NCBI RefSeq assembly: GCF_013364155.1
Contig: NZ_CP054916.1
Span: 3,220,501-3,284,500 of the forward strand
Origin: Streptomyces sp. NA02950
GTDB taxonomy: Bacteria > Actinomycetota > Actinomycetes > Streptomycetales > Streptomycetaceae
Direction of reading: 5' to 3'
Length of the DNA: 64,000 nucleotides
Shown: in pieces, positions 12,004 through 17,412 of the stretch
Numbering within the stretch: position 1 is the stretch's first letter
Layout: every line of letters starts with the position of its first letter
The notes under the pieces: model-generated
Told to the model about the DNA's origin: nothing
Database searches by the model: none
Seen by the model: only the letters and a program-made list of their open reading frames with translations
Translations under genes and position numbers: made by a program

Positions 12004-12039
12004 GCCCGGGCCACTCCGGATCCGTTCAGACTGTCAATC

Positions 12040-12082
12040 GGCGCGCAGGAGCCAGGAAGCGGCAGATCCGCTTCCGCGCGCC
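12040..12082 (+). terminator. Hairpin downstream of hisN
   Basis: An outer stem GGCGCGC/GCGCGCC (12040-12046 with 12076-12082) and a perfect inner stem GGAAGCGG/CCGCTTCC (12055-12062 with 12068-12075) are joined by a one-sided 8-base bulge. CTTGTTG follows. It probably terminates hisN transcription; it could also be the 5' part of the leader of the CBS gene. Confidence 0.55.
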
Positions 12083-12124
12083 CTTGTTGAGTCCGCCAAA
12101 GCATGTGAACATGAGAATCCAGGA

Positions 12125-12200
12125 CCTTGTGAACTTGTGCATCCTTTCACAGGCGCCTCCGGCGCCGGGTGTTCGCACCCTGGATGCACCAAGGAGGTGG
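12125..12200 (+). ncRNA. Candidate structured leader RNA upstream of the CBS-domain gene
   Basis: Three stems fit together here. P1 is GTGCATCC (12137-12144) with GGATGCAC (12182-12189). P2 is GGCGCC (12152-12157) with GGCGCC (12161-12166). P3 is GGGTG (12167-12171) with CACCC (12176-12180), closed by a TTCG tetraloop. Together they form a three-way junction. A competing stem, TGTGAA (12128-12133) with TTCACA (12146-12151), encloses the 5' arm of P1 and would make a pseudoknot. The strong Shine-Dalgarno AAGGAGG starts two bases after P1. I recognise no known riboswitch class. Confidence 0.5.
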
Positions 12201-12208
12201 CTCCATCC

Positions 12209-12607
12209 ATGCCCATGCACGTCCGTGACGCCATGAGCTCGGTGGTCCTCACCATCGGCCCCGCGCATACGCTCCGCCAGGCCGCCCGGCTGATGTCGGA
12301 CCGCCGGGTCGGATCGGCCATCGTGCTCGATCCCGACACCAGCGGCCTCGGCATCATCACCGAGCGCGACATCCTCAACTCCCTGGGCGCGGGCCAGGAT
12401 CCGGACCACGAGACCGCACACGCCCACACCACCGCCGACGTCGTCTTCGCCGCCCCCGGGTGGACGCTGGACGAGGCGGCGCGCACGATGGCCCATGGCG
12501 GTTTCCGCCATCTCGTCGTGCTCGACGCGGGTGATCCCGTCGGGGTGGTCTCGGTGCGCGACATCATCCGCTGCTGGGCCCCGGTCCCGCAGCCCGCGAT
12601 GGCCTGA
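12209..12607 (+). CDS. Two-CBS-domain protein
   Basis: A protein of 132 aa made of a tandem pair of CBS domains (about 1-60 and 70-128; for example MHVRDAMSSVVLTIGP, then GIITERDIL and GVVSVRDII). Such stand-alone Bateman modules bind adenine nucleotides or related ligands and sense energy state. No enzyme domain is attached. The ATG at 12209 is chosen because an almost perfect Shine-Dalgarno sequence (AAGGAGGTGG, 12191-12200) precedes it. The leader in front is unusually structured. It is convergent with katA, separated by a bidirectional hairpin. Confidence 0.88.
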   Translation: MPMHVRDAMSSVVLTIGPAHTLRQAARLMSDRRVGSAIVLDPDTSGLGIITERDILNSLGAGQDPDHETAHAHTTADVVFAAPGWTLDEAARTMAHGGFRHLVVLDAGDPVGVVSVRDIIRCWAPVPQPAMA

Positions 12608-12756: not shown

Positions 12757-14223
12757 TCAGCCGCGCAAGGCCTGGACCGCGGCCTCCAGTCGCTTGCCGT
12801 AGTCGGCGTCCGCCTTGCGGAAGTTCTCGATCGCCCGCTGCGCGATGTCATCGCGCGACACCTGCGAGATGAACCCCGCGAGGTTGGCGATCAGGCGCTC
12901 CTTCTCCTCGTCCGACATCAGCCGGTAGAGGTTGCCCGCCTGGACGAAGTCGTCGTCCTCGGCGTGTGAGGGAGTCTCGTGGTCACCGGTGCGGCCGGAG
13001 ACCGCGACCGGCTGCCACAGCGGCCGACCGGTCTGCGCCGGGCCGCCGAAGCTGTTCGGCTCGTAATTCTTGGCGCCCGCGTGACGGCCGTCGTACAGGA
13101 GGCCGTCCCGGCCGTGGGTGCGCGCCTCGGTGGCGTGCGGACGGTTCACCGGCAGGTGGTCGGCGTTGATGCCGACGCGGTAGCGGTGGGCGTCGCCGTA
13201 GGCGAACAGCCGGCCCTGGAGCATCTTGTCCGGGGACGGGCCGATGCCCGGCACCAGATGGGCCGGCGAGAAGATCGACTGCTCGACCTCGGCGAAGATG
13301 TTCCGCGGGTTGCGGTTGAGCTCCAGCTTGCCGATCTCGATCGGGGGGTAGTCCTCGTGCGGCCAGACCTTGGTCAGGTCGAACGGGTTGAAGCGGTAGG
13401 TCGCCGCGTCCGCCTCGGGCATGATCTGCACCTGGACGGTCCAGCCCGGGAAGTCCCCGCGCTCGATGGCCTCGCGCAGATCGCGCTGGTGGCTGTCGGG
13501 GTCCTTGCCCGCGATCACCTCGGCCTCCTCGGAGGTGAGGTTCTTGATGCCCTGGTCGGTCTTGAAGTGGTACTTGACCCAGAAGACCTCACCGGCGTCG
13601 TTGTTCCACTGGAAGGTGTGCGAGCCGAAGCCGTCCATGTGGCGGTACGAGGCGGGGATGCCGCGGTCGCCGAACAGCCAGGTGACCTGGTGGGTGGACT
13701 CGGGCGACAGGCCCCAGAAGTCCCAGACGTTGTCCGCCTCCTGCGAGCCGGTGTACGGGTCGCGCTTCTGGGTGTGGATGAAGTCGGGGAACTTGATGGC
13801 GTCCTTGATGAAGAACACCGGGGTGTTGTTCCCGACGAGGTCGTAATTGCCCTCTTCGGTGTAGAACTTCAGCGCGAAACCGCGCGGGTCGCGCACCGCG
13901 TCCGCCGAGCCGAGGTTGCCGGCCACCGTGGAGAAGCGCAGGAACGTCTCGGTCTGCTTGCCGACCTCGGAGAGGAACGCGGCGCGGGTGTAACGCGTCA
14001 CATCGGCGGTCACCGTGAAGGTGCCGTACGCACCGGCGCCGCGCGCGTGGACGATCCGCTCCGGGATCCGCTCGCGGTTGAAGTGGGCCAGTTTCTCGAT
14101 CAGGTGCTGGTCCTGGATCAGACCCGGACCGCCGGCACCGGCCGTCTCGCTGTTCTGGTTGTCCGCCACCGGAGCGCCGGACTCCGTGGTCAGCGGACCA
14201 GCGATGTTCTCCTGGACCGTCAC
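12757..14223 (-). CDS. katA: Monofunctional haem catalase
   Basis: A clade-3-sized catalase of 488 aa that dismutates hydrogen peroxide. The distal His59 lies in [10 protein letters not shown], the distal Asn in [13 protein letters not shown] (near 132-133), and the proximal haem ligand Tyr342 in [12 protein letters not shown]. It is transcribed away from catR. The sequence between them contains the palindrome TTAGAC-TTT-GTCTAA, resembling the CatR box described for the S. coelicolor major vegetative catalase, so peroxide-inducible derepression by CatR is expected. The GTG at 14223 opens [11 protein letters not shown] bidirectional hairpin follows the stop. Confidence 0.96.
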
Positions 14224-14297: not shown

Positions 14298-14385
14298 GTC
14301 AAGAACGCCTGGAGAGTGATACCGGATCTGGCCATGGACTCGCCCGCTGCTACCCTTGTCCTTATCTGACTGATAGGTGAATGGC

Positions 14386-14802
14386 ATGAGTGACCTGCTG
14401 GAACGGCTCCGGGGACGGGGCTGGCGACTGACCGCGCAGCGGCGTGTGGTCGCCGAGGTCCTCGACGGGGACCACGTGCACTACACCGCCGACGAGGTTC
14501 ACGCGCTGGCGGCCGACCGCCTGCCCGAGATCTCGCGCGCCACGGTGTACAACACCCTCGGTGAGCTCGTCTCTCTCGGCGAGGTGATCGAGGTCAGCAC
14601 CGACGGCCGGGCCAAGCGCTACGACCCGAACGCCCACCACGCCCACCAGCACCTGGTGTGCGCGCGGTGCGGCACGATCCGCGATGTCCACCCCACCGGT
14701 GACCCGCTGGCCGACCTCCCGGCGCCGGAGCGCTTCGGCTTCGCGGTCTCCGCGGTCGAGGTGACCTATCGCGGACTGTGCCCCGACTGCGCGGCCGCCT
14801 GA
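14386..14802 (+). CDS. catR: CatR, peroxide-sensing Fur-family repressor
   Basis: A protein of 138 aa. The N-terminal winged helix (MSDLLERLRGRGWRLTAQR, then ISRATVYNTLGELV) binds DNA. The C-terminal dimer domain has the metal-binding HHAHQHLVCARCG region and a second cysteine pair LCPDC near the end. By family it is a PerR-like sensor that represses the adjacent catalase gene. I take ATG 14386 (MSDLL) rather than the GTG at 14377, since AGGTGA precedes it at 14375-14380. A weaker TATC-N5-GATA repeat (14363-14375) overlaps its own upstream region and may allow autoregulation. Divergent from katA. Confidence 0.94.
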   Translation: MSDLLERLRGRGWRLTAQRRVVAEVLDGDHVHYTADEVHALAADRLPEISRATVYNTLGELVSLGEVIEVSTDGRAKRYDPNAHHAHQHLVCARCGTIRDVHPTGDPLADLPAPERFGFAVSAVEVTYRGLCPDCAAA

Positions 14803-14913: not shown

Positions 14914-14987
14914 TAGCGGGGACAGGATTTGAACCTGCGACCTCTGGGTTATGAGCCCAGCGAGCTACCGAGCTGCTCCACCCCGCG
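14914..14987 (-). tRNA. Initiator tRNA-fMet (CAT), copy 1
   Basis: A 74-nt tRNA. The anticodon is CAT in the loop CTCATAA, with the anticodon stem CTGGG/CCCAG whose three consecutive G:C pairs mark initiators. Position 1 (C) and position 72 (T) do not pair, the second initiator hallmark. The D-loop and T-loop (GGTTCAAATCC) are normal. CCA is not encoded. It initiates translation with formyl-Met. Identical to the copy at 17339-17412. Confidence 0.96.
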
Positions 14988-17338: not shown

Positions 17339-17412
17339 TAGCGGGGACAGGATTTGAACCTGCGACCTCTGGGTTATGAGCCCAGCGAGCTACCGAGCTG
17401 CTCCACCCCGCG
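17339..17412 (-). tRNA. Initiator tRNA-fMet (CAT), copy 2
   Basis: A 74-nt sequence identical to the copy at 14914-14987: CAT anticodon, GGG/CCC anticodon-stem pairs, mismatched C1-T72, no encoded CCA. The immediate 5' flank differs from copy 1, so the promoters are distinct. Confidence 0.96.

Follow-up and report, generated by a model that had tools for sequence, protein, structure and literature searches.

Rex is a redox sensor repressor that responds to NADH/NAD+. In Streptomyces avermitilis its consensus operator is TTGTGAA-N4-TTCACAA, and at cydA1 the Rex footprint extends from -3 to +25, covering both the operator and a TTGTGAA half-site. A composite similar to that of cydA1, operator plus half-site, is described at wblE; at aveR, Rex protects a pair of adjacent half-sites in footprints but gives no clear gel shift (PMC5355995, in the part of the article available). 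Direct repeats in Streptomyces promoters are also described as the operators of BldC and WhiJ9 (available parts of PMC5859096 and PMC10294661). In translational riboswitches, helices adjoin the Shine-Dalgarno sequence and alternative pairings can be drawn in the leader, and both features recur at the locus analyzed here.

This locus lies in a 64,000-nt stretch of the Streptomyces sp. NA02950 genome (NZ_CP054916.1, positions 3,220,501 to 3,284,500; hereafter the window, from whose first letter positions are counted). A preliminary description had placed a structured leader RNA, thought to be a cis-acting ligand switch, in front of a stand-alone CBS-domain gene. Our search of the open literature found no description of an operator or leader element for this gene. 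By comparing orthologous upstream regions, we find that what is strongly conserved is a direct repeat resembling part of a Rex operator, which in Streptomyces is accompanied by a predicted leader hairpin of variable geometry.

The CBS Gene and Its Neighbors

The open reading frame at 12209-12607 (plus strand, 132 amino acids, with a possible second start at 12215) indeed encodes a stand-alone CBS protein. The domain search assigned two CBS domains, and no DNA-binding domain is known in the protein. Relatives of the gene are found in 118 of 150 related genomes (E up to 1e-20), and the solved relatives of the protein by sequence, MJ1225 and Rv2626c among them, are other CBS proteins. Tail to tail with the CBS gene lies an open reading frame (12757-14223, minus strand) that we take, by eye, to be catalase-like. 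It is adjoined by a gene for a Fur-family regulator (14377-14802, plus strand, PF01475). Two tRNA genes with equal Rfam scores of 61.7 bits are located on the minus strand at 14914-14987 and 17339-17412, about 2.4 kb apart. Upstream, the CBS gene is preceded by a gene of the inositol-monophosphatase family (domain search), presumably hisN. The single article found for SCO5208 concerns HisN (PMC5516325).

A Conserved Direct Repeat Downstream of a Predicted Promoter

Upstream DNA was compared across 80 named Streptomyces loci (the best 80 of 502 relatives), 30 loci from the related-genome search, which include the window's own locus, and 76 further regions. What stands out as strongly conserved is a 15-bp direct repeat with the consensus TTGTGAAC-TTGTGAA, situated just 3' of a predicted promoter. 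In the window it takes the form TTGTGAAC-TTGTGCA (12127-12141, plus strand), and we propose it as an operator. All 156 Streptomyces loci have the repeat (TTGTGAACTTGTGAA) on the strand of the gene, matching at 12 or more of its 15 positions, in a tally where some genomes come from two collections, identical leaders or upstreams being merged elsewhere. A first tally, to which locus L183 was then added, comprised 155 Streptomyces loci, 94 of them with a perfect repeat.

The element extends beyond Streptomyces. Family f3, of the same order, has 13-14 of 15 matches in 9 of 10 loci, and in family f20, which belongs to another order of the same class, the repeat is found inverted in 29 of 30 loci (11-15 of 15 matches) and is retained although the preceding gene differs there (by eye). 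In all 18 orthologous loci outside families f1, f3, and f20 the best match was at most 10 of 15, so that the CBS gene can do without the repeat in some lineages. The repeat is also kept in a family where no stem of the kind described below is seen. A constant position combined with a switch of strand is what we would expect of double-stranded DNA bound by a protein rather than of RNA, and the behavior of this most conserved element points to such a site.

Column frequencies over 149 distinct Streptomyces upstreams (loci L100 and L160, which lack the strict pattern, were left out) show TTGTTG, a 17-bp spacer, an extended -10 of the form TGnnAnnnT, 14 nt, and then the repeat. The corresponding predicted promoter of the window occupies 12084-12112 (plus strand), with a -35 box TTGTTG at 12084-12089, 17 bp, and an extended -10 composed of TG at 12104-12105 and GAACAT at 12107-12112. 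A simple consensus scan for sigma-70 promoters and for terminators returned none. Transcription is predicted to start near 12118-12120. A start downstream of 12137 had been named as an observation that would speak against the leader; the predicted start, at about 12118, lies upstream of that position, so that the 8-bp stem proposed there would be transcribed. The bulged hairpin at 12040-12082 (plus strand), previously counted as part of the leader, does appear in the fold, but it lies 3' of the HisN-like gene and upstream of the predicted -35 box, and is therefore probably outside the leader.

A second copy of the repeat, ATGTGAACATGAGAATCC, was recognized by consensus match over the -10 (12103-12120, plus strand), 24 bp before the main copy. 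At this offset of -24 the window matches the consensus in 15 of 18 positions, and 23 of the 149 upstreams match in at least 12. As judged by eye, the repeat itself overlaps the likely -10 in the f3 loci, and in the f20 loci the inverted repeat comes just after a TACCGT-like -10.

Resemblance to Rex Operators

The second half of the repeat, which starts TTGTGCATCCTTTCACAG in the window, is usually the start of a Rex-like operator in Streptomyces. In the window this is the palindrome TTGTGCA-TCCT-TTCACAG (12135-12152, plus strand), which departs from the published consensus at 2 of 14 fixed positions (PMC5355995). When the second repeat is read as the left half, the operator has at most two mismatches in 66 of 144 distinct Streptomyces leaders and at most three in 111. 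The left half coincides with the conserved repeat, and the test for Rex therefore rests on the right half, which is matched in at least five of seven positions in 66 of the 144 leaders. Speaking against Rex, the right half reads TTCAC or CTCAC in just 18 of them, with TTCTC (40), TGAAC (34), and CGAAC (14) as commoner forms. No Rex palindrome was seen at the CBS loci of f3 and f20.

The genome of the window's strain was scanned with WTGTGMANNNNTTCACRA, allowing up to one mismatch, which gave 15 matches at 11 places, as against 1 for the backwards control; the window site was recovered at one mismatch to this relaxed pattern. The rex promoter is among the places found (with a PF06971 match beside it), and further sites precede the genes for cytochrome bd subunit I (cydA) and NADH dehydrogenase chain 3 (nuoA). 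The gene behind another, encoding a pyridine-nucleotide oxidoreductase or NADH-dehydrogenase-like flavoprotein, we take to be ndh, and the protein behind yet another is presumably WblE, as we recognized it. A Rex-like site at 7032446-7032463 (around position 1500 of locus L289) stands upstream of a gene for a CtaA-like protein (PF02628), which may be another target of Rex.

The CBS site shares with the Streptomyces Rex operators at cydA, wblE, rex, and nuoA the half-site TTGTGAA and the N4 palindrome with TTCACAA. As at cydA and wblE, an extra half-site adjoins it, and its predicted position at or after the start would resemble that at cydA1, the candidate site spanning 12127-12152 relative to a predicted start at about 12118 (comparison with the available part of PMC5355995). 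In contrast to the cydA and wblE sites of the same genome, which are flanked by CTTGTGA at 6 bp, the spacing from half-site to operator at the CBS gene is 8 bp, the right half of the CBS site is often degenerate, and in f3 and f20 the element is a direct repeat without the palindrome. A rex gene (PF06971) is present in the window's own genome and in 142 of 150 relatives. The f20 genomes G122 and G142 have rex, and palindromic TCGTGAA-N4-TTCACGA sites occur in f20, yet the CBS element of that family is a direct repeat only; several genomes lacking the repeat at the CBS gene nevertheless have rex. The CBS gene is not named for S. avermitilis Rex in the available text of PMC5355995, where "cbs" occurs 0 times. 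On balance, we regard Rex as the likely repressor of the CBS gene in Streptomyces.

We propose that a repressor, most likely Rex in Streptomyces, would bind the 8-bp direct repeat just 3' of the transcription start and block or stall RNA polymerase, the second copy over the -10 also being bound in the window's clade. High NADH takes Rex off its operators, so that production of the CBS protein would be expected when oxygen is limiting, as for cytochrome bd. The transcribed operator would then form the 5' arm of a leader hairpin ending just before the Shine-Dalgarno sequence, which would probably tune translation or mRNA life with no metabolite sensing. We give an even chance to this reading as a whole, in which the CBS gene is a probable member of the Rex regulon, with a DNA operator and a transcribed copy of it in a lineage-specific leader hairpin. 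Should Rex control the gene, the NADH/NAD+ response would gain a widespread but functionally uncharacterized CBS protein, and this would give a first experimental handle on its role.

A Predicted Leader Hairpin with a Sliding Register

At the sequence level, the 8-bp stem of the preliminary description, GTGCATCC (12137-12144) with GGATGCAC (12182-12189), is placed as claimed, and both perfect inner hairpins are present, GGCGCC-TCC-GGCGCC at 12152-12166 and GGGTG-TTCG-CACCC at 12167-12180. Together they make up a leader hairpin at 12137-12189 (plus strand), followed by the Shine-Dalgarno sequence AAGGAGG (12191-12197, plus strand). The three-way junction that had been drawn from these helices appears in the minimum-energy fold, which contains an extra pairing of CCUUG 12125-12129 with CAAGG 12190-12194 over the Shine-Dalgarno sequence. 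The inner hairpin was also searched for as a repeated element, and its exact 18-mer is unique in its own genome. Between GGAGG and the first ATG lie 11 nt (12198-12208), a rather long spacer, and an in-frame second ATG follows at 12215; TGGCTCCATCC, common to many Streptomyces leaders in the spacer region, could form a GGAG/CTCC hairpin.

A competing stem, TGTGAA 12128-12133 with TTCACA 12146-12151, is likewise present in the sequence, but the pseudoknot that it had been taken to create is not common to most other leaders (by eye). The same complementarity is what a Rex half-site and the inverted right half of an operator would give. The stability of a single-sequence fold is weak evidence. 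Over 12030-12215, a range that takes in the 12040-12082 hairpin, z was -2.99 and 1 of 200 shuffles folded as well; over 12118-12240, close to the predicted transcript, stability is unremarkable, with z = -1.56 and equal or greater stability in 17 of 200 shuffles.

The stem was then compared across Streptomyces by pairing 16 nt from the second repeat onward with up to 16 nt before the Shine-Dalgarno sequence. The 152 loci with a recognizable repeat and Shine-Dalgarno sequence yielded 145 distinct leaders, of which the 144 of at least 37 nt were used (one further comparison took the 130 leaders of at least 40 nt). A helix score of at least 13 was reached in 62% of the 144 leaders, compared with 10% for shuffled and 30% for swapped 3' arms. 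When the 3' arm was exchanged for the one found in the closest relative whose stem differs, pairing weakened in 72 leaders, improved in 44, and was unchanged in 28 (p = 0.012). Compensatory changes were found among the orthologous leaders, with 12 reciprocally compensated nearest-relative pairs. One such pair is formed by the window (GTGCATCC/GGATGCAC) and locus L034 (GTGAATCC/GGATTCAC); because locus L031 shares the window's stem state, this compensation is probably one event. The change in the window comes at the expense of an operator position at which 94% of upstreams have A.

With the register fixed, the signal is small at best and depends on the class of leader. Of the 38 distinct arm pairs in the CAAGGAGG class, 7 form all eight pairs at the window's exact register, and in this class 71.1% of cells are paired as compared with 67.2% after arm swaps that leave shared descent in (1 of 2000 swaps as good). 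By the same procedure the CAGGAGG class gives 51.8% versus 47.3% (31 of 2000), and for the TAGGAGG class the signal is absent (49.4% versus 49.8%, 1251 of 2000). No structure emerged when 65 short leaders were aligned with MAFFT and folded with RNAalifold, the helix register sliding from leader to leader, and the inner hairpins as printed are not common to most other leaders (by eye). The score, swap, and fixed-register results favor a hairpin and not its exact geometry. What survives of the 8-bp stem is thus a recurrent, compensated hairpin between the second repeat and the sequence before the Shine-Dalgarno, but register, loop, and inner hairpins are not conserved. From these comparisons we favor a lineage-specific leader hairpin with a sliding register, maintained by compensatory changes in many Streptomyces.

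The hairpin may be a mere insulator or stabilizer of the mRNA 5' end, with the operator doing all the regulation, a possibility that we hold tentatively, at a little under an even chance, and that is compatible with the operator-plus-hairpin reading. The sliding register and variable loops would suit such a role, and so would the predicted exposure of the Shine-Dalgarno sequence, which barely moves when the 5' arm is blocked (mean 0.26 unblocked and 0.31 blocked in the 144 leaders, with an increase in 62 and a decrease in 36). An argument against a mere insulator is that compensation is kept near the Shine-Dalgarno sequence across many species and, in the window, extends to a conserved base of the operator. 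Blocking the 5' arm in the window alone raises the predicted exposure from 0.24 to 0.56. A translational switch, as had been proposed, could thus be read from the window alone, but the predictions over the 144 leaders are not consistent and the set as a whole does not suggest one.

Specificity of the Repeat and Alternative Regulators

The 17-mer CTTGTGAACTTGTGAAT occurs once each in 23 of 61 Streptomyces genomes and zero times in the remainder. The relaxed motif CTTGTGnnnTYGTGAA has 106 matches in 99 of 121 Streptomyces genomes, compared with 29 for the backwards pattern. Positions were assigned to 79 of these 106, those in genomes where the CBS gene had been located, and not to the other 27; 74 of the 79 lie at the CBS gene and 5 elsewhere. 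The window's own genome does not fit the relaxed motif, its second repeat being TTGTGCA. Across the class, 45 of 246 genomes have a match, and these are scattered beyond f1 and f20.

Having nearly one site per genome, at the CBS gene, would also fit the operator of another, dedicated regulator, possibly the CBS protein itself acting by autoregulation, the resemblance to Rex sites being secondary. The retention of the direct repeat without a palindromic right half in f3 and f20, in the latter despite a different preceding gene (by eye), is in line with such a regulator, and DNA-binding CBS proteins do exist (BCARR and MJ0729, as cited in the available part of PMC3795697). Nevertheless, we regard a dedicated regulator as rather doubtful, given that the CBS protein consists of two CBS domains only, with no known DNA-binding domain, and that the half-site TTGTGAA is identical to that of Rex (available part of PMC5355995). 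A more far-reaching version, which we consider unlikely, would make CTTGTGnnnTYGTGAA a dedicated, nearly single-target operator that serves the CBS gene of several actinobacterial families in either orientation. Either the CBS protein or a partner would sense the adenylate or redox state, bind the DNA, and control its own synthesis, and the Streptomyces operator would double as an RNA hairpin. Should the regulator be other than Rex, an operator that is specific to one gene, is conserved between orders, and has no known binder would offer a clean entry to a new one.

Other candidate binders were compared with the repeat by eye and rejected. The consensus AATTXXXX(C) of BldC (PMC5859096) and CGXXCTCAAC of WhiJ9 (PMC10294661), as given in the available parts of these articles, do not fit TTGTGAAC. 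A match to TTGTGAAC in the SimReg1 paper is a primer sequence.

A ligand-sensing leader RNA, or riboswitch, governing translation of the CBS gene, the central proposal of the preliminary description, is very improbable: its stem shows compensatory changes and adjoins the Shine-Dalgarno sequence, and the window allows alternative pairings, but, unlike translational riboswitches, the leader has no conserved aptamer or core outside the repeat, its length ranges between 37 and 106 nt but for one leader of 17 nt, its register slides, the predicted switch is inconsistent, and the main conserved element occurs in both orientations, being inverted in f20. Rfam gave no match to the leader (gathering cut-off; E up to 5). 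With Rex or with another regulator, this riboswitch-like leader would be mainly a DNA site, which calls for caution in searches for leader RNAs.

Some further occurrences of the repeat were noted. The 13-mer TTGTGAACTTGTG occurs twice in the window's own genome, and the other occurrence, at 6038487-6038499 (positions 1501-1513 of locus L112), lies about 100 bp before a secreted-looking open reading frame. Genome G703, of family f19, has five CTTGTGCGRTTGTGAA-type copies, on contigs C6, C9, C18, C20, and C25; two of the five are within 71 bases of a contig start, a pattern as expected of a repeated element.
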